This document shows positions 36 through 55,415 of a stretch of 64,000 bases of DNA, piece by piece. The DNA is taken from positions 2,797,501-2,861,500 of the forward strand of contig NZ_CP029176.1 in the NCBI RefSeq assembly GCF_003352165.1. Direction: 5' to 3'. How positions within the stretch are numbered: position 1 is the stretch's first letter; every line of letters begins with the position of its first letter. Both the position numbers and the translations under genes were made by a program. The stretch is from Acidibrevibacterium fodinaquatile (GTDB lineage Bacteria; Pseudomonadota; Alphaproteobacteria; Acetobacterales; Acetobacteraceae). The notes under the pieces are model-generated. The model saw only the letters and a list, made by a program, of their open reading frames with translations, searched no databases and was not told the DNA's origin.

Positions 36-1034
36 TTATGACCCTTTTGTGCGATTTTTTTTGCGGGTCGTTTGCCAGTCCCGAAACCAGGCGAGAAAGC
101 GAGGGATTCCCTCGTCCAGCGGCGTTTTCGGGGCGTAGCCGGTGAGCGCCGCGAGGGCGTCGATCGCGGCGAAGGTCTCGGCGACGTCGGCACGCGGCGT
201 CGGCGCCAGGCGAATGATCGCGCGTCGGCCGAGCCCGGCCTCGAGCAGCGCGATCAGCCGCGTCACCGCCTCGCTGCGGTGATTGCCGATGTTGAAAAGG
301 CGCGGTGGCGCGCCGGCCGGCGGCGGGCGATCGAGACAGCCGAGCACGCCGGCGACGATATCGTCGATATAGGTGAAGTCGCGCTTGAGCCGCCCGTCGC
401 CATAGACGGTGATCGGCTCGCCAGCGGCGATCGCCTCGGCGAAGGCGAAATACGCCATGTCCGGCCGCCCCCACGGGCCATAGACGGTGAAAAACCGGAG
501 GCCGCTCTGCGGCAAGCCGAAGAGATGGCCATAGGCCGCGCTCATCAGCTCGTCGGCGCGCTTGGTCGCGGCATAAAGCGAGGTCGGCTGATCGACGCGA
601 TCGCTCTCGGTGAACGGCAACGCCTGATTGGCGCCATAGACCGAGGACGAGCTGGCATAGACCAGGTGATCGAGTCGCGAAAGCCGCCTTGCGATCTCCA
701 AGATCACGAGATGGCCCATCACATTGGCGCTGACATAGGCGTAAGGATCGACGAGCGAATGCCGCACCCCGGCCTGCGCCGCGAGATGGACGATGCGGCT
801 GATCGCGGGAAACGCCGCGACCAGGTCCGCTATCGCCACGCGATCGGCGATGTCGAGGCGGCGAAACGTGAACCCGTCCCGCGCGAGCAGCCGCGCCAGC
901 CGCGCCTCCTTGAGCCCGACATCGTAGTAGGGGTTGAGATCATCGACCCCTACCACCCGCTCGCCGCGCGCGAGCAGCGCCTCGGCGACGTGATAGCCGA
1001 TGAAGCCGGCAGCCCCCGTGAGCAGAACCGTCAC
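36..1034 (-). CDS. NAD-dependent epimerase, UDP-glucuronate 4-epimerase type
   Basis: A 332-residue extended-SDR nucleotide-sugar epimerase, probably acting on UDP-glucuronate or a related UDP-sugar for LPS or capsule precursors. The N-terminus has the Rossmann signature TGAAGFIGYHVAE. SSSSVYGANQ and YAATK supply the catalytic Ser/Tyr/Lys, and VDDLNPYYDV is typical of the UDP-glucuronate epimerase subgroup. I start at the GTG whose last two bases overlap the gmhA TGA stop (GTGA), because upstream in-frame codons lie inside gmhA and have no homology-like sequence. It is coupled to gmhA, which fits surface-polysaccharide synthesis. Exact sugar specificity cannot be read from sequence; another GalE-like specificity is possible. 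Confidence 0.85.
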   Translation of the reverse strand: MTVLLTGAAGFIGYHVAEALLARGERVVGVDDLNPYYDVGLKEARLARLLARDGFTFRRLDIADRVAIADLVAAFPAISRIVHLAAQAGVRHSLVDPYAYVSANVMGHLVILEIARRLSRLDHLVYASSSSVYGANQALPFTESDRVDQPTSLYAATKRADELMSAAYGHLFGLPQSGLRFFTVYGPWGRPDMAYFAFAEAIAAGEPITVYGDGRLKRDFTYIDDIVAGVLGCLDRPPPAGAPPRLFNIGNHRSEAVTRLIALLEAGLGRRAIIRLAPTPRADVAETFAAIDALAALTGYAPKTPLDEGIPRFLAWFRDWQTTRKKNRTKGS

Positions 1035-46069: not shown

Positions 46070-47098
46070 ATGACGCCGTGCTTGACCCGCCGCCGCGCCC
46101 TCGGCGCGGCCATTCTCGCGATGCCGGCAGTGTTGCGCCACGCCCGGGCAGACGCCGCGATCCGGCTCCGCTGCTCGCTCGACACCGCGCCCTCGCACGG
46201 GCGCAACAAATCGCTCGCCGATTATCTCAAAAAGCTCGATGCCGCGTCAGAAGGCCGGATCAAAACCGAATTATTCCAAAGCGGGCAGCTTTTCTCTGAT
46301 CTCGATGTCTCGAAAGCGCTGATCCAGGGGCAAGTGGAAATGGCCTGCCCCGGCACCTGGACGATGACCGGCTTCATTCCCGATTGCGATCTCTTCCAAC
46401 TCCCCGCCCTTTATGGTCAGCCCTTTTCGGTCACCCACAAGGTGGTCGATGGCCGCGCCGGCGCCATGGTGAATGGCGAGATCGACAAGCGCTTGCGCGG
46501 TCATGTTCTCGGCCCCTGGCTCGATCTCGGCTATCAGAATTGGTACGCGGCGTCCCATAAGCTCACCGCATTCGAAGATTTGCGCGGCCTTAAGATCCGC
46601 AACTCCGGCGGCGCCGGCCAAGCCTGGCGGGCGCGCTTCTTCGGCGCCATCCCCAATACCACCGCCTGGCCGAACGTGCCCTTGGCCCTCTCGCAGGGCA
46701 CCTTCGATGGCCTCGTCAGCACCGATGAAAGCGTCGCCAGCGCCCAGCTCTGGGAAGCGGGGGTGAAATACGTCCTCGCCGATCATCAATTCGTCGGCGA
46801 ATATATCCCGATCGTCGCCAATAGCTTCTGGAGCGGCCTTGCGCCTGATCTGCAGAAACTGATGACCGATCTTTGGGCCGCGAACATCCCGACCTACCGC
46901 GCCAATATGCAGGCCGATCAGGACGCCGCGCGCGAAAAATTGATCGCCCATGGCGTGACCTACACCGTCCCGCCCGCCGATCAGGTCGCCGCCGAGCGCA
47001 AGAAGATGCTGGCCGAGCAGGACAAAGTCGCGCGCGAGATCAAGGTATCGCCGGACATGGTCCGTCTGGTCAGCGAAGATGTCGGCACCGCCGCCTGA
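46070..47098 (+). CDS. dctP: TRAP transporter substrate-binding protein (DctP family)
   Basis: A 342-residue periplasmic binding protein. The leader contains TRRRALGAAIL, a twin-arginine-like motif, with cleavage near ARADA, so export may be by Tat. The DctP fold is indicated by LFQSGQLFSDLDVSKALIQGQVEMACPG, LRGLKIRNSGGAGQAW (with the conserved carboxylate-binding Arg in KIR) and FDGLVSTDESVASAQLWE. It works with the next two genes to import a carboxylate by Na+/H+ gradient. It overlaps dctQ by 20 nt. The ligand is unknown. Confidence 0.88.
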   Translation: MTPCLTRRRALGAAILAMPAVLRHARADAAIRLRCSLDTAPSHGRNKSLADYLKKLDAASEGRIKTELFQSGQLFSDLDVSKALIQGQVEMACPGTWTMTGFIPDCDLFQLPALYGQPFSVTHKVVDGRAGAMVNGEIDKRLRGHVLGPWLDLGYQNWYAASHKLTAFEDLRGLKIRNSGGAGQAWRARFFGAIPNTTAWPNVPLALSQGTFDGLVSTDESVASAQLWEAGVKYVLADHQFVGEYIPIVANSFWSGLAPDLQKLMTDLWAANIPTYRANMQADQDAAREKLIAHGVTYTVPPADQVAAERKKMLAEQDKVAREIKVSPDMVRLVSEDVGTAA

Positions 47099-47621
47099 GC
47101 GCGGCGCGCGCGCGCTCTGGTCGCGGGCCGAACGCGTCATCGTCGGGTTGCTCGGGCTCGCGGCGCTGCTTGCCGGCAGCGTCCAGGTGCTGGGCCGTTA
47201 TCTCGCGCCGGCGCACGCGATCTCCTGGGCCGAGGAGGTCATCGTCTATCTCCTGGTCTGGGCGGTGATGATCGTCGCCTCCGAACTCGCGCGGAGTGAT
47301 GGCCATGTCCGCCCCGATGTCGTCTTGCGGCTGCTTTCCCCCGCCGGCCAGCGCTGGCTCGAGATCGCCAACTCCTTGGTCGCGGTCGTTTTCTGCGCCG
47401 GTCTCGTCTATTATGGCTGGCAGATCGTCGCGACCGCCTGGCTGCTCGATGAGCGGAGTTCGACCGATCTGCAATTTCCGATGTGGCTCTATTATCTCGC
47501 CCTCCCGGTCGGCGGCGGGCTGATGGCGCTCCGCTATCTCGCGCGCCTCGGTCGCTATCTTTTCGCGTTCGATGCGCGCCGGATGACGATCGGCCGCAGC
47601 GACGTAACGCGCACCGAATAA
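47079..47621 (+). CDS. dctQ: TRAP transporter small permease (DctQ family)
   Basis: A 180-residue protein with four predicted helices (VIVGLLGLAALLAGSVQVLG, EEVIVYLLVWAVMIVASELA, LEIANSLVAVVFCAGLVYYG, LYYLALPVGGGLMALRYLA). AISWAEEVIVYLLVW and DGHVRPDVV are DctQ family signatures. ATG at 47079 lies inside dctP, a 20-nt overlap. It pairs with the large permease downstream. Confidence 0.88.
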   Translation: MSAPPPERGARALWSRAERVIVGLLGLAALLAGSVQVLGRYLAPAHAISWAEEVIVYLLVWAVMIVASELARSDGHVRPDVVLRLLSPAGQRWLEIANSLVAVVFCAGLVYYGWQIVATAWLLDERSSTDLQFPMWLYYLALPVGGGLMALRYLARLGRYLFAFDARRMTIGRSDVTRTE

Positions 47622-47637: not shown

Positions 47638-48915
47638 ATGACCGTTCTCCTCTTTCTCGTGCTGTTTTTCGGCCTGCTCGCCGTCGGGCTGCCGATTTTT
47701 CTGGTGCTCGGGGTGTGCGCCGCCATCCTCTATGCGGTCTCCGGCCAGCCTTTGGTCGGCGTTGCGCAGGTGATCATCGATCAGCTCAATTCGACGACGC
47801 TGATGGCGTTGCCGCTTTTCGTCATGGCCGCCGCCTTCATGCGCCGCGGCGGGGTTGCGCAGGCGCTGGTCGATCTCGCTGTTGCCTGGCTCGGCGGCGT
47901 GCGCGGCTCGCTCGGCCTCGTCACGGTTGTTGCCTGCACGCTGTTTGCCGCGATCTGCGGCTCGAGCGTCGCGACCGCGCTGGCGATGGGCACCATCCTC
48001 TTGCCGGCGATGCTAGCGCGCGGCTATCCGCGTTCCTTCGCGCTCGGCGTCATCGGCGCCTCGGGCACCATCGGCATCGTCGTGCCGCCTTCGATCGCGC
48101 TCATTCTCTATGGCATCGTCGCCGAGCAATCGGTGCCGCGCCTGTTTCTTGCCGGCATCCTGCCGGGCCTCTTACAGGCGGCGGCGTTTTTCGGCTGGGT
48201 GTGGTACACGGCGCGGCGCAATCATTTCCCAATCGAGCCGTCCCTGCCCTGGCGCCGCCGCCTCGCCGTCACCTGGGCGGCGCTGCCCGCACTCGCGGTG
48301 CCGGCGGTGGTTTTGGTCGGGATCTATGGCGGGCTGGTGACGGTGACCGAGGCGGCGGCGGTCGCGGCGGTGGTGGCCCTCTTCGTCAGCCTGGTCTTTT
48401 ACCGCGGCTTTCACCCCGCGGAGACCTTGGCGGTGGTCGCCGATGGGTTGCGCAGCGCCGGCGCGATCATGCTGATCGTCGCCTCGGCGCTCGCTTTCGG
48501 CCATTGGATGACGCAATCGGGCATTCCCGCCGCGCTTGTCCATTTCACCGTCGCGCACGGGTTTCGCACCTGGCAATTCCTGCTCGCGATCAATGTTTTG
48601 TTACTCGTGCTCGGCTGCTTTCTGGAGGTGACGGCAACGCTCCTCCTGGTGCTGCCGGTGCTGGCGCCGGCCTTGGTGCCGCTCGGCGTCGATCCCGTGC
48701 ATTTCGCCATCATTTTCACCCACAACATGGAAATCGGCCTCGTCCATCCACCGGTCGGGCTCAATCTCTTCGTGCTGTCGACGATCTCAAACGCGCCCAT
48801 CGGCGAGGTGATCCGTGGCATCCTGCCGTTTCTGATCCTGCTCTTGGTCGTGCTCGGGATCATCACCTATGTGCCGATCCTCACCCTCTGGCTGCCCCAT
48901 CTCGTGTTCCATTGA
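47638..48915 (+). CDS. dctM: TRAP transporter large permease (DctM family)
   Basis: A 425-residue integral membrane protein with about 12 helices. Diagnostic are the GSSVATALAMGTILLPAMLARGYPRSFALGVIGASGTIGIVVPPSIALILYG region and [23 protein letters not shown] near the C-terminus, both conserved in DctM. It starts 16 nt after dctQ. Its last 129 bp overlap the convergent MprF-like frame; the DctM end ([20 protein letters not shown]) looks complete, so the overlap is at the expense of the other gene. Confidence 0.92.
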   Translation: MTVLLFLVLFFGLLAVGLPIFLVLGVCAAILYAVSGQPLVGVAQVIIDQLNSTTLMALPLFVMAAAFMRRGGVAQALVDLAVAWLGGVRGSLGLVTVVACTLFAAICGSSVATALAMGTILLPAMLARGYPRSFALGVIGASGTIGIVVPPSIALILYGIVAEQSVPRLFLAGILPGLLQAAAFFGWVWYTARRNHFPIEPSLPWRRRLAVTWAALPALAVPAVVLVGIYGGLVTVTEAAAVAAVVALFVSLVFYRGFHPAETLAVVADGLRSAGAIMLIVASALAFGHWMTQSGIPAALVHFTVAHGFRTWQFLLAINVLLLVLGCFLEVTATLLLVLPVLAPALVPLGVDPVHFAIIFTHNMEIGLVHPPVGLNLFVLSTISNAPIGEVIRGILPFLILLLVVLGIITYVPILTLWLPHLVFH

Positions 48916-50892
48916 GGCGAGCAAAAGCGTGAGATCGCGCTCGGTGCGGCAAAGCGCGTAGTGTCCCGCCTCACCGGGGGCCGGAACCGCGGAGAGGCCG
49001 ATATCGGCATAGACCCCGAGCAGGGCTTCGCCGCCTTGCCAGACCGCCGGCGTCGCCCCTTCCTGGGTCGCGAGATCGCGCAGCCGCCAGATCGCCGAAA
49101 CCCGATCGGCGACCGCGCCGACGGGGTCACCGAGCCCGACAACGAGATGGCCGAACCGCCGCACCGGCAGCGCCGCGTCACCCGCTTCCCCCCAGAGCAG
49201 GCCATCGGCCGCCGGAGGCGGCGTGCCGCCGAGCGCTTGGAACCGCCGCCGCGCGTCACTGCTCCAGGGATCGAGCCGCACCTGCCCCGGGCGCAGCAAT
49301 TGCCAGATCGCGAGGATCCCCAAGCCGACCGCGAGCGCGAGGCTGAGCCGGAGCCCATTGGGCGCTTGCGGCGAGGCGACCACCTCCCACCAGCTCTGAT
49401 CGGCGAGGCCGCGGACATGATGCTCGAAAGCGGAAAGGGTGATGACGCAGAGCACCAGCGCGAGCAGCGGCAGCGATGCGGCGAGATCGAACGGGTCGGA
49501 GGTGAGATGGACATGGCGGTAAAACGCCCGCCGGAACGGCGCGATCAGCGCCGTCGCCGCGAGCAGCATGGTCGGCACCCACCAGCGCACGCCTTCGACG
49601 AAGGTCACCGCGGCGGCGACCAAAAGCAGCACCACCACCGCCCCCCAGGCCAGGGTGACACGCCGCGAGAGCCCGAAGGCAAGGGCGAGCAGCCCGGCGC
49701 CGAGCAGCGAGGGGATGAATTGTCCCGAGGGCGTGCTCAACTCGGCAAGATCGGCATCGACCCACGACATGTCCGGCATCGGCCCGACGACGCCGAGCAA
49801 AAGCAGCATGGCGCCGCAGATCGTCACCGCCCCGGTCGCGATCGCGACCGCGAAATCCGGCTCGCTCCAGCTGCCGAGACCGGCGATCCAGCCCGGCGCC
49901 GTCGCCCCGCCCGGCAGGATCTCGCGCCCGCGCAAGAGAATTTCGTTGCCGGCGAACAGGCCGCCGGCGAGGAACAGCGGAATGATCGAATAATAGAGCC
50001 GAAAGACGATGATCGCGCCGGCAATCTGCGGCGCACCGAGATAGGGCGAGAGGCCGAGCAGGACGAGGCTGTCGAAGACGCCGATCCCCCCCGGCAGGCT
50101 CGCGAGCAGGCCGGCGCTGGTCGCGACGACATAGACCGCAAGGCACCGCAGATAGCTGAGCCCCGGCGCCGGCGGCAAAAGCGCATAGAGGATCAGGGAG
50201 GTCACGGCGACGTCGGCGGCGGCGATCATCACCTGCAAAACCGCCATCCGGCTGTCGGGCAGCGCGATGTCATGGCCGAACAGGCGAAGATGGCCGAGGC
50301 TGCGGGCAATCCAGAGATAGCCGAGCACCAGTGCCCAAAGGCCAGCGCCGGCGACGGCGGGAAGATAAGGCGGCAGCTTGTCGCCGAACAAAGGCACCGC
50401 GCCGGGCTCGACGAACAGGATCGCACCGCCCAACACCATGCCGCCAAGGCCGAAGGTGAGGCTGCAAAAGGCGATCACCTTGCCGATCTGCACCGGCGTG
50501 AGGCCCCAATGGGCATAGAGGCGAAACCGCACCGCCGCCCCGGACACCGCGGCGAAACCAAGATTATGCGAGAGCGCATAGGCGCAGAACGAAGCGAACG
50601 CGGTTCGCCAATAGGAAACCCGCGCCCCGGCATAAATGATCGCAAGCCGGTCATAGAATGTCAGCACACCATAAGCGAGCAGGGTAAAGCCAAAGGCGCT
50701 CGCCAGCGCGCGCTCGGGGATGGCGTCGAGTGCGGCGATGATGTCCTCGAGCCGGAGCGAGCGGAATTCGCGCTGGACCACGAACACCGCCGCAATCAGC
50801 AGGACGAGCCCGAGCAGCGGCGGCACATGGCGCAGCGAAAAAACCGCCCGCCGGACCGGCTTGGCAGAGAGTGCTGGCGCCTCAGGCGGCAT
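48787..50892 (-). CDS. MprF-like flippase with C-terminally truncated transferase domain
   Basis: A 701-codon frame. Residues about 20-545 form the polytopic MprF/UPF0104 flippase region ([45 protein letters not shown] are typical). From about 565 the DUF2156 aminoacyl-PG synthase domain begins ([42 protein letters not shown]) but is lost after about 85 residues. The last 43 codons are antisense to dctM, giving hydrophilic nonsense-like sequence ([18 protein letters not shown]). MprF proteins are usually about 850 residues, so roughly 200 residues of the catalytic domain are missing. The flippase may still work. It overlaps lysS by 11 nt. Confidence 0.78.
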
Positions 50893-52492
50893 CGGCGGGG
50901 CGCGCGAGCGCCGCCTCGATCAGCGCGATGGTTTCCGGAATGCCATAGATCGCGACGAAATTGCCGAAACGCGGCCCCTCCGCCTGACCGAGCAGCACCT
51001 GATAGAGGGTGCCGAACCAGGCGCGAAGATCGGGAAACGGATGGCGCTTGCCGATGTCGTAAAGCAGGGTCTGGATCGCCGTCTCATCGGCACCTTGCGC
51101 GAGATGCGGAAGTTCCGCGGCCAGTTCCGCGAGGGCCGTGCGCTCGAGGTCATCGGGGGCGCGATGGCGCTTCGCCGGGCGGATGAAATCGCGATAATAG
51201 ATGAGCGCGTGCTCGACGAGGCGGGCGAGCAGCGGATTGCCCTCCGGGGTTGCCGCCGGCGCATAGCGGCGGATGAAGCTCCAGAGAATATCGGCGCGTT
51301 CGGCATTGACCACGGCGGCGAGGTTGAGCAGCAGCGTGAACGAGAGCGGCACATCCTCGACGGGGATGGCGCCGCCGCCGATATGCCAGACCGGGTTCGC
51401 CATCAGCGCCGCCCCATCCTGGGCGTGGGCGCGCTCGAGATTGCCGAGATATTCATCGACGGCGCGCGGGATCACGTCGAAATAGAGCCGCTTGGCGCGT
51501 TGCGGCGCGTTGTACATGAATTGCGCGAGCGACTCGGGCGGCGCGTAACGCAGCCAATCCTCGACGGAGAGCCCGTTGCCCTTCGATTTGCTGATTTTCT
51601 GGCCGTTTTCGTCGAGGAACAATTCGTAGGTGTAGGCCTCGGGCGGCATACTGCCGAGGATGCGGCAGATTTTTCCCGAAAGCCGCACGCTGTCGATCAG
51701 ATCCTTGCCCGACATTTCGTAATCGACGCCGAGCGCATGCCAGCGCATCGCCCAGTCCGCCTTCCATTGCAGTTTGCAATGCCCGCCGGTTACCGGGGTT
51801 TCGTAGGATTTGCCGCTCTCGGGATCGCGCCAAGCGACGGTTCCGGCGTCGCGGTCGATGTTCGTGAGGGCGACCTGCATGACGATGCCGGTTTCGGGAT
51901 GGATCGGCAGAACCGGCGCATAGGTCGCCCGGCGTTCGGGGCCGAGGGTCGGGAGAATGACCGCCATCACCTCGTCATAGACTTCGAGCAGGCGCAGTAA
52001 GGCGTCATCGAACCGCCCGGCGGTGTAATAATCGGTCGCCGAGGCAAACTGATAATCGAAGCCAAAGGTGTCGAGAAACCCTTGCAGACGGGCATTGTTA
52101 TGGGCGCCGAAGCTTTCATGCGTGCCGAACGGATCGGGGATCCGGGTGAGCGGCTTGCCGAGATGGCTCTCCAGCATTGCGCGGTTGGGCACATTGTCCG
52201 GCACCTTGCGCAGACCATCCATGTCGTCGCTGAAAGCGATGAGCCGAGACGGCATGCCGGTGAGCACGCCAAACGCATGGCGCACCCAGGAGGTGCGGGC
52301 GACCTCGCCGAACGTGCCGATATGGGGAAGGCCGGAAGGGCCGTAGCCGGTCGCAAACAGCGCCCGCTGCGCGCCGGTTTTGGCGAGCCGCGCGGCGAGT
52401 TTGGCGGCCTCCTCGAACGGCCACGCCTTGGGCAGGTCAGCGAGCAGCGATTGCGGGGAGGGTGGCGCCATGTTGCGAAATGTGTCCGTCAT
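50882..52492 (-). CDS. lysS: Lysyl-tRNA synthetase, class I
   Basis: A 536-residue class I LysRS, the form used by archaea, spirochaetes and many alphaproteobacteria. The HIGH-type motif lies in [16 protein letters not shown], the KMSKS-type motif in KISKSKGNG, and the C-terminal helical anticodon-binding domain is typical. It charges tRNA-Lys in the cytoplasm. A -35/-10 pair places the predicted transcription start at or next to the ATG at 52492, implying a leaderless mRNA; an internal ATG at 52471 is less likely. The MprF-like gene follows with an 11-nt overlap, matching the Lys-tRNA requirement of lysyl-PG synthases. Confidence 0.94.
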
Positions 52493-52498
52493 GAACGC

Positions 52499-52527
52499 AA
52501 GCTAGAAACCACCCCGATCTTGGTCAA
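52499..52527 (-). promoter_or_regulatory. Predicted lysS promoter (leaderless)
   Basis: On the minus strand TTGACC (52522-52527) is followed after 17 nt by TAGCTT (52499-52504). The expected start is about 7 nt further, at the first base of the lysS ATG (52492). No Shine-Dalgarno precedes that ATG. Its -35 overlaps that of the divergent helicase promoter. Confidence 0.5.
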
Positions 52528-52547
52528 TGTGCAAGACGCCTTATAAT
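52520..52547 (+). promoter_or_regulatory. Predicted helicase promoter with consensus TATAAT (leaderless)
   Basis: TTGGTC (52520-52525), a 16-nt spacer, then a perfect TATAAT (52542-52547). The predicted start falls at about 52553-52554, coinciding with the ATG of the helicase gene, so the transcript would have no 5' leader. A perfect -10 is notable in such GC-rich DNA. Confidence 0.6.
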
Positions 52548-52553
52548 TCGGCA

Positions 52554-55415
52554 ATGTCACAATCATCCCCGCCGCCCCGCGCCTCGTCCCCGCGGCAATC
52601 CCCCGCTCTGGTCGCCGTCGAGGGGCGGGCAGCGCTTTTGACCCCGGCGGGCGAGATCATCGCCGGGCCACCTGCCGCCATCACCGGCCCCCTCGCCGCT
52701 TTGCCGCCGCCGCTCCTCGTACATGCCCCGGCGGTATGGCGACGGCTCGGCATCCGGCCGCGGCCGGCGCTCGATCTTCTCGAGCTCTTCGCCTTCGTCC
52801 ATCCGGCGCGGGCGCTGGTGCCGACGCCGCGCGGGCTCGCCGGATTTTTCGATCAGCCGACGCCCGGCGCCGATCCCGCCGAGCAGGTCGGCCAGCTCGC
52901 GGGGTTTGCCGCGTCCCTGCTTGCCGACCTCGCCCGCGCCCGCCGGCTGCCGCAAAACCGCGACGCGGCAGCGCTTGCCGCGGGGCTTGGGCGCGCCGGC
53001 TGGGGTTGGGCCGAGGCGGTGCTGGCGGCGCTCGACGAGCCGGCGGCGCTGCCGTCGGCGGAGGCGCTCGCGGTCTGGCGGCGTTTGCCGGAATGGCCGG
53101 AGACGGCGCCATTGCCGCCGCCTTCGGCGCATCCCGTCGGCGCCGCCGAGGCAAGGCGGCGGCTCGCGGAGATCCTCGGCGCCAAGGCCGAGGCGCGGCC
53201 CGGCCAATCCGACTATGCCGCCGCCGCGACCGAAGCCTTCGCCCCGCGCGCCGAACGCGGCGCGCCGCATCTCGTGCTCGCCGAGGCCGGCACCGGCACC
53301 GGCAAGACGCTGGGCTATCTCGCCCCGGCCAGTCTCTGGGCGCAGCGCAATCAGGGCCCGGTTTGGATCAGCACCTTTACGCGGCATTTGCAGCGCCAGA
53401 TCGAGGGCGAACTCGCCCGCCTCTATCCCGATCCGGCGGCGCGGCGGCAGCTTTCGGTGGTGCGCAAAGGGCGGGAGAATTATCTCTGCTTGCTCAATTT
53501 CCAGGACGCGGCGCAGGGTATGGGGCTTACCGTCCCGCCGCTCGCGCTCGGGCTCATCGCGCGCTGGGCGCTCGCGACCCAAGACGGCGACATCCAGGGC
53601 GGCGATCTTCCCGGCTGGTTCGCCGAACTTTTTGGCCAGGGCGCGATCCTGGCGCTCGCTGACCGGCGCGGCGAATGCATCCACGCCGCCTGCGCGCATT
53701 GGCGGCGCTGCTTCGTCGAGCACGCCATCCGCCGCGCCGAGAGCGCTGAACTGGTCATCGCCAATCACGCCTTGGTGATGAATCAGGCGGCGCATTTCTG
53801 GAACTGGGGCGAGGGCGCGGAGGAGAGCGCGGTGCCGACCCGCTATGTTTTCGACGAGGGGCACCACCTGTTCGACGCCGCCGATGCCGCTTTCGCCGCC
53901 GTGCTGTCGGGGGTGGAGGCCGCGGAATTGCGCCGCTGGCTGCTCGGGGCCGAGGGGTCGCGCTCGCGCGCCCGCGGCCTGCGCGCCCGGGTCGGCGAAT
54001 TGGTCGCGGGGCTCGCGCCGCTCGAGGCCGCGCTGGAAGCGGCGCTGATCGCAGCGCGGGCCTTGCCGGCACCCGGCTGGGCGGGCCGGCTCGCGGGCGG
54101 CGAGGGGCCAGAAAGCGGCGATCTCGCCGGTGATCCGATTGGCCCGGCGAACCCAGCGGAGGCGTTTTTCCACGCCCTCAACCGCCAAATCCTCGCGCGC
54201 ACGCCCGGCGCCGAACGCCCGCCAGAGAGCGCGGGGATGCCGCGCGAGGTCGATCTCCACCCGCTCGACCCGGCCGTCATCGCCGCCGCCGCGGCGCTGG
54301 AGCGGGCGCTTGCGCGGCTCGCGGCCCCGCTGGCGGCGCTGCGCACGCGGCTCCAGGCGCGGCTCGAGGATGCGGCGGAGACGCTCGACAGCGCGACCCG
54401 CAACCGCATCGCCGCCGCCTGCCGCACCCTTGGCCGGCGCGCTTTGGAGCGACTTACGGCGTGGCGCGAGATGCTGGCCGCCCTCGCCGAACCGCCGCCC
54501 GCGCCCGGCACGCGGCCGCGTTTCATAACCTTCCTGCGCCGCGAGACGCTGCCTGGCGGCGGGATCGAAGTTGGCCTCCACCGCCATTGGCTCGATCCGA
54601 CCGAACCTTTCGCAGCCACCCTCGCCGCACCGGCGCACGGCGTTCTGATCACGTCGGCGACCCTCCGCGACGAGGGGGCGGGCGATCCCGTTGCCGCTTG
54701 GGAAGCCGCCGAGGCGCGGGTCGGGGCGGGGTATCTGCCGCGCCCGGCGGTGCGCGCGGCACTCCCCAGCCCATTCGACTACGCAGCGCAAACCCGGGTC
54801 TTTATCGTCGACGACATCGCCGGCGGCGACATCGCCGCCCTCGCCGGCGCCTTTCGCGCCCTGTTTCTCGCCGCGCGCGGCGGCGCGCTCGGGCTTTTCA
54901 CCGCGATCGGTCGGCTTCGCGCGGTTCATGCCCGGCTTGCCCCGGCGCTCGCCGCGGCTGGCATTCCGCTTTACGCCCAGCATGTCGATGCCATGCACAA
55001 CGCAACATTGGTCGATATTTTCCGCGCCGAGGAGGAAAGCTGTCTTTTGGGGACCGATGCGATGCGCGATGGCGTCGATGTGCCCGGCCGCGCGTTACGC
55101 CTCGTGGTGTTCGAGCGCGTGCCGTGGCCGCGCCCCGATATCCTGCACCGCGAACGGCGGATCCATCTCTCCGGCGGCGCGCCCGGGGCTTATGACGACC
55201 GGCTGGCGCGGCTTCGCCTGCGCCAAGCGTTCGGACGGCTGATCCGGAGTGATGGTGATCGCGGGGTGTTCGTGCTGCTCGACCGGCGTCTGCCGACCCG
55301 GCTTTACCCGGCGTTTCCCGAGGGGGTTCCGATCCAGCGGACGGGCCTCGCCGCCGCGGTCGCGGCGACGGCGGCGTTTCTCAGCGAGGGCGTCGCCGAG
55401 GCGGCGAAAAAATGA
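52554..55415 (+). CDS. DinG/XPD-type Fe-S ATP-dependent DNA helicase
   Basis: A 953-residue superfamily 2 helicase. The Walker A is AEAGTGTGKT with Lys251; Walker B/motif II is FDEGHH with Asp434. Four cysteines, C312, C375, C380 and C386, fit a 4Fe-4S cluster; the last three have the same spacing (5 and 6) as in E. coli DinG. C-terminal motifs VLITSATLRDEG, LLGTDAMRDGVDVPG and LRLRQAFGRLIRSDGDRG are motifs IV-VI. The first 200 residues are an Ala/Pro-rich region, possibly a degenerate nuclease-like domain. ATG at 52554 is chosen because the -10 box ends 6 nt before it; the ATG at 52527 lies inside the promoter. The role is 5'-3' unwinding of R-loops or damaged DNA. Confidence 0.88.
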   Translation: MSQSSPPPRASSPRQSPALVAVEGRAALLTPAGEIIAGPPAAITGPLAALPPPLLVHAPAVWRRLGIRPRPALDLLELFAFVHPARALVPTPRGLAGFFDQPTPGADPAEQVGQLAGFAASLLADLARARRLPQNRDAAALAAGLGRAGWGWAEAVLAALDEPAALPSAEALAVWRRLPEWPETAPLPPPSAHPVGAAEARRRLAEILGAKAEARPGQSDYAAAATEAFAPRAERGAPHLVLAEAGTGTGKTLGYLAPASLWAQRNQGPVWISTFTRHLQRQIEGELARLYPDPAARRQLSVVRKGRENYLCLLNFQDAAQGMGLTVPPLALGLIARWALATQDGDIQGGDLPGWFAELFGQGAILALADRRGECIHAACAHWRRCFVEHAIRRAESAELVIANHALVMNQAAHFWNWGEGAEESAVPTRYVFDEGHHLFDAADAAFAAVLSGVEAAELRRWLLGAEGSRSRARGLRARVGELVAGLAPLEAALEAALIAARALPAPGWAGRLAGGEGPESGDLAGDPIGPANPAEAFFHALNRQILARTPGAERPPESAGMPREVDLHPLDPAVIAAAAALERALARLAAPLAALRTRLQARLEDAAETLDSATRNRIAAACRTLGRRALERLTAWREMLAALAEPPPAPGTRPRFITFLRRETLPGGGIEVGLHRHWLDPTEPFAATLAAPAHGVLITSATLRDEGAGDPVAAWEAAEARVGAGYLPRPAVRAALPSPFDYAAQTRVFIVDDIAGGDIAALAGAFRALFLAARGGALGLFTAIGRLRAVHARLAPALAAAGIPLYAQHVDAMHNATLVDIFRAEEESCLLGTDAMRDGVDVPGRALRLVVFERVPWPRPDILHRERRIHLSGGAPGAYDDRLARLRLRQAFGRLIRSDGDRGVFVLLDRRLPTRLYPAFPEGVPIQRTGLAAAVAATAAFLSEGVAEAAKK

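Follow-up and report, generated by a model that had tools for sequence, protein, structure and literature searches.

The mprF gene that adjoins the lysyl-tRNA synthetase gene lysS in Acidibrevibacterium fodinaquatile is intact and encodes a naturally shortened MprF form, which is common to most of the Acetobacteraceae relatives examined. The protein is probably a family-wide MprF paralogue without synthase, acting as a flippase or scramblase that carries GNAT fold 1 as a docking domain.

Results

A short MprF beside lysS

The gene lies in the window, the whole stretch of 64,000 nucleotides that was analysed (contig NZ_CP029176.1, positions 2,797,501 to 2,861,500). Its parts and neighbours are given below in window positions; the names dctP, dctQ and dctM are those of an earlier reading made from the sequence alone (the sequence-only reading).

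46070..47098 (+): dctP
47079..47621 (+): dctQ
47638..48915 (+): dctM, large membrane subunit of a TRAP transporter, transcribed towards mprF
48787..50892 (-): short MprF paralogue, 701 aa, ATG start (open reading frame, Pfam/NCBIfam and homologue searches)
48787..48915 (-): genus-specific tail, codons 660-701 plus stop, antisense to the dctM end
48895..48966 (-): closing strand and helix, residues 643-666, putative equivalent of the far C-terminus of full-length MprF
48982..49272 (-): GNAT fold 1, residues about 541-637 (Pfam, model, structure and profile alignment)
49288..49860 (-): TMD2, residues about 345-535, borders approximate (model and structure alignment)
49903..50835 (-): TMD1, the flippase domain, residues about 20-330, borders approximate (PF03706 at 27-308, model and structure alignment)
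50882..52492 (-): lysS, class I lysyl-tRNA synthetase (NF001968, 827.8 bits, cut-off 648)

The mprF start overlaps lysS by 11 bp. The Pfam profile PF09924 (LPG_synthase_C) matches residues 567-636 only, equivalent to profile positions 26-96 of 298, and PF03706 is found at residues 27-308 with 26.3 bits, below its cut-off of 33.4 bits. With the NCBIfam profile for bifunctional MprF, NF033480, the protein scores 331.7 bits, below the cut-off of 600, and the full-length control L195 scores 869.7 bits. Of the features of bifunctional MprF, the protein has the two transmembrane domains and the gate residues, but not complete GNAT folds 1 and 2. The sequence-only reading had described an incomplete synthase domain, with about 85 residues of DUF2156 left, behind a complete flippase part. 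The Pfam match agrees with this description of the synthase, the compact domain of our structural model covering about residues 541-666, and the flippase part is borne out by alignment of the model with Pseudomonas aeruginosa MprF (9goe; 584 residues aligned, Z 31.4).

We rejected the idea that the missing synthase domain is encoded elsewhere, where the sequence-only reading had suggested searching for it: in a profile search of the organism's own genome, short mprF was the sole PF09924 match. Outside the window this genome also carries a TMD1-only PF03706 flippase gene (C1:2947528-2948394, + strand; 326-aa frame, 72.5 bits). Within the window Rfam yields one tRNA at gathering scores, and positions 48500-53000 contain two promoter-like matches (0.4 expected from shuffling) and six terminator-like matches (2.8 expected).

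Distribution of the short form

A homologue with an open frame is present in all six genomes of the genus. One of them, G003, has two mprF copies, each broken by a contig end. Two copies are likewise present in the metagenome-assembled genome FK3.bin79 (L106, L107), where one agrees with the window protein at 100% over residues 79-701 and the other at 84%; the bin perhaps combines two species. At E <= 1e-20, homologues occur in 276 of 299 family genomes and in 234 of the 250 of good quality, the family being Acetobacteraceae as judged from named records; in a sample of the order they occur in 148 of 150 genomes, all from the same family. Among the matches listed in the family search, identity to the short MprF outside the genus is 44-64%. 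The labels of the named relatives read Acetobacteraceae, Rhodopila, Acidisphaera, Rhodospirillales or something vaguer, and one reads Terriglobia.

From 80 named loci, 74 usable open reading frames (stop present and match beginning near the start; the other six have open ends or late starts) give estimated lengths of 622-709 residues. This is the pattern that the sequence-only reading itself had named as evidence against its proposal, many relatives of 650-700 residues sharing a conserved C-terminus. In five comparisons within the genus, the membrane domains have dN/dS values of 0.08-0.26, and GNAT 1 with its cap has 0.21-0.35. An open frame in 6/6 genus genomes and a dN/dS of 0.08-0.35 outside the tail are not what a pseudogene would present, and a sequencing error or one-genome artefact was rejected on the recurrence of the short form in all six genus genomes and throughout the family.

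Twenty of the 23 family genomes without a homologue are among those listed. Seven of these 20 have neither a strong class I LysRS match nor a class II match above the cut-off, and in these the assembly may not include the mprF locus. In the genera g54, g96 and g24, lysS is present without mprF at all six loci read, which come from genomes without a homologue. A search of open-licence papers found no title or abstract on the short form.

Relation to full-length MprF

PF09924 matches are present in 171 of 200 family genomes. Among the matches listed, 12 genomes show one that is full-length or nearly so, including G011, where it covers profile positions 8-282 in a 474-residue frame; all 12 carry a short PF09924 match alongside it. 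The short matches listed end at profile positions 93-111. In a tree of 41 proteins, built from an alignment cut before GNAT 2, the 20 short forms make up one side of a branch with support of 100/100, and eight full-length family copies (96/88) fall among other alphaproteobacterial MprFs. A recent derivation of the short form from the family's full-length MprF was therefore rejected, as the full-length copies group with other alphaproteobacterial ones and the short clade stands apart.

Outside the family, the frames of matches covering the two membrane domains measure 841-918 residues (22 matches listed, 289 genomes) and, in a second sample, 852-1217 residues (28 matches listed, two repeated from the first; 299 genomes); these frames run from stop to stop and are upper bounds on protein length. 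The remaining matches extend little past TMD1, in the first sample in frames of about 320-370 aa. No form of 650-760 residues with both membrane domains was seen in other lineages among the matches listed from the sampled genomes. In another alphaproteobacterial family, one gene (L204:5527-8103, - strand; G332) has a short and diverged synthase region in which PF09924 matches at 26-106 only and a C-terminal stretch aligns to the domain end of 4v34, possibly a separate erosion event.

The remaining GNAT domain

In an alignment-based AlphaFold2 model (75 sequences; mean pLDDT 82.1, pTM 0.76), residues 541-660 fold into a compact domain with blocks at pLDDT 86-96. In VIA-align, which reports just the end points of each alignment, model residues 544-669 match 5vrv_C 538..861 (Z 17.0, 2.0 A, 123 residues), 538-666 match 4v34 547..876 (Z 15.3) and 537-668 match 4v36_B 523..848 (Z 15.4). 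Residues 541-640 align with GNAT 1 by sequence (hhalign score 94.7), so the final strand and helix are expected to correspond to the domain's far C-terminus. On its own, the profile of the tail places best at columns 313-329 of 345, with a score of 15.7 and a weak hhalign probability of 1.15% (E 0.046); among 300 column shuffles of this profile, 3 scored as high, 34 landed at the same end and 1 did both. The model and the structure alignments suggest that the domain lost GNAT fold 2 from its interior, with the C-terminal strand and helix now closing GNAT fold 1.

In the closing motif, C648 is found in 74 and D653 in 71 of the 75 closer relatives, and in 15 and 16, respectively, of the 20 members of a diverse set. 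GNAT 1 is retained in this diverse set, and its GDP-G motif varies little or not at all. The mean frequency of the commonest residue is 0.74 for GNAT 1, 0.78 for TMD1 and 0.68 for TMD2. PMC8131360 places the proposed site for aminoacyl-tRNA in the cleft that GNAT 1 and GNAT 2 form together. In the short form the docking part is under constraint, whereas the remainder needed for a full aminoacyl-tRNA cleft is gone.

Conserved flippase and docking residues

We mapped residues to Rhizobium tropici MprF (RtMprF) via L195; their roles are taken from PMC8131360, and the assignment of contacts to residues is our own, from alignments. Of the gate and lipid residues, D227 (Rt D234) is present in 75/75 sequences, and all 20 members of the diverse set have D or E there. 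D274 (Rt E280; 74/75), R298 (Rt R304; 75/75) and Y301 (Rt Y307; 75/75) are likewise conserved. At the interface between GNAT 1 and the flippase, R459 (Arg456) is kept in 75/75, D606 (Glu611) in 73/75 and D630 (Asp635) in 68/75; the remaining four of the seven docking residues in RtMprF (Asp604, Arg639, Arg136 and Thr145) have been replaced in the short form.

Linkage to lysS

All 36 loci chosen for reading have lysS as the immediate upstream neighbour in the same orientation, no more than 129 nt from the aligned start at 35 of them. The same position was found at 6/6 further loci and at 77 of the 80 named loci, where contig ends truncate the remaining three; the three sets of loci overlap. Relatives with an intact 3' end next to lysS, which the sequence-only reading had suggested looking for, did not appear: no lysS match lies in the regions fetched for 19 longer MprF genes (8 from the family and 11 from elsewhere; L205, with no mprF match, was left out).

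Genus g68 (L211-L214; G072, G143, G225 and G189) retains TMD1 only, in frames of 334-402 aa that follow lysS at all four loci, and the two g68 proteins in the tree lie within the short clade. The TMD1-only form of g68 is a second shortening step inside this clade. A strong class I LysRS match was obtained in 33 of 40 genomes, and none of the 40 has a class II LysRS above the cut-off, so that lysS is probably an essential anchor.

The C-terminal tail

As the sequence-only reading had noted, the frame runs antisense to dctM for 129 bp (48787-48915, codons 660-701 plus stop; dctM ends at 48915). Family homology ends at about residue 660, where this overlap begins, and the genus therefore seems to have lost the native stop and gained about 42 residues. 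The TRAP operon with dctM is convergent downstream at four of five genus loci and at two named loci (in L037 the contig ends inside mprF); outside the genus, TRAP genes adjoin mprF at 0/31 loci. The tail is modelled with pLDDT of 44-75 by blocks, and its dN/dS is 0.10-0.78 over only 32-42 codons. Third-position changes in dctM number 3, 5, 13 and 8 of 42 codons in the overlap and 56, 69, 120 and 106 of 343 in the rest, one sequence being part of all four comparisons. The last ~42 residues in the genus are probably a by-product of the loss of the native stop beside convergent dctM. The 129-bp overlap is itself found at four of the five genus loci, and antisense effects on transcripts are possible.

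Discussion

How the synthase was lost, and what the remaining GNAT fold does, can be read in several ways. The sequence-only reading held that a rearrangement at the TRAP operon had removed the ~200 residues of synthase domain in this lineage. The frame does enter dctM, and the TRAP genes adjoin mprF within the genus and not beyond it, so that the proposed breakpoint holds for the last ~42 residues only. For the missing ~200 it is refuted, as the same domain loss is family-wide, including genomes without TRAP genes at the locus, and the conserved closing motif comes after the break; as an account of the short form, recent truncation is practically untenable. It is unlikely that the protein is a flippase only, with GNAT 1 a functionless remnant and the lysS link mere conserved gene order. 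The g68 proteins, which keep TMD1 alone after lysS, and an essential lysS as anchor would fit such a protein, but conservation of GNAT 1 is close to that of the membrane domains, and the diverse set retains it.

The replaced docking residues and the weak hhalign figures for the tail match weigh against our preferred explanation. So does the constant lysS neighbour, which would be odd for a protein without use for Lys-tRNA. This neighbour could instead mean that the single GNAT fold serves as a membrane arm of class I LysRS in Acetobacteraceae: it would bind Lys-tRNA or the synthetase, perhaps holding the latter at the membrane, and would attach lysine to a lipid without GNAT 2 or link flipping to the charging of lysine. 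The presence of lysS at every short-form locus with upstream sequence and beside none of the longer MprF genes points in this direction, as does the conservation of GNAT 1 with its GDP-G motif. We nevertheless consider such an arm very unlikely: GNAT 2, half of the aminoacyl-tRNA cleft as proposed in PMC8131360, is absent, the genome has no second PF09924 protein, and g68 has lost GNAT 1 yet keeps the gene order after lysS.

The explanation that we favour, a synthase-less flippase or scramblase, starts from what was observed, a short-form clade present in most family genomes and, at the loci that were read, placed after class I lysS. Without GNAT 2 there would be no aminoacyl-tRNA cleft and hence no lysyl- or alanyl-phosphatidylglycerol (PG) by the known route. 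The protein would then move lipids made elsewhere, and GNAT 1 may have been retained to dock onto or gate the flippase from the cytosol. In this sense the short MprF may act as a lipid flippase without a synthase of its own, as the sequence-only reading had supposed. According to PMC11980842, the lipids that P. aeruginosa MprF transports in vitro include PG, PE, PC and aminoacyl-PG. The cargo therefore need not be aminoacylated. The organism's own genome has two matches to PF13444, the family to which OlsB belongs and which an Escherichia coli control also matches; ornithine lipid as the cargo is only a guess.

The short form shares both membrane domains, GNAT fold 1 and the gate residues with bifunctional MprF/LpiA of R. 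tropici (6lvf, 7duw), R. etli (7f47) and P. aeruginosa (9goe). It differs from them in lacking GNAT fold 2, in scoring below the NF033480 cut-off and in its pairing with lysS (0/19 for longer MprF). The TMD1-only LPG_synthase_TM/UPF0104 proteins, such as P. aeruginosa GpgF (PMC12713373), are likewise predicted flippases without a fused synthase, but the short MprF has TMD2 and GNAT 1 in addition to what their frames of ~320-370 aa encode. Another natural half-MprF, Clostridium perfringens CpMprF1 (PMC11980842), is the mirror image, with the synthase kept and the flippase domain absent. Mycobacterial LysX (NF002821) is also an MprF relative tied to lysyl-tRNA synthetase; there LysRS is fused to an active synthase, whereas here two adjacent genes encode a class I LysRS and a protein without GNAT 2.

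In most genomes of the family, MprF thus occurs in a natural synthase-less form, the full-length protein being seen in 12 of 200 among the matches listed. Annotation is affected: the Acetobacter mprF genes labelled 'phosphatidylglycerol lysyltransferase' in a fly-colonisation study (PMC10269862) may be synthase-less. The pairing of LysRS with a protein from which the known Lys-tRNA site is missing is an unexplained link, and the role of the flippase in cells without synthase becomes testable in acetic acid bacteria.
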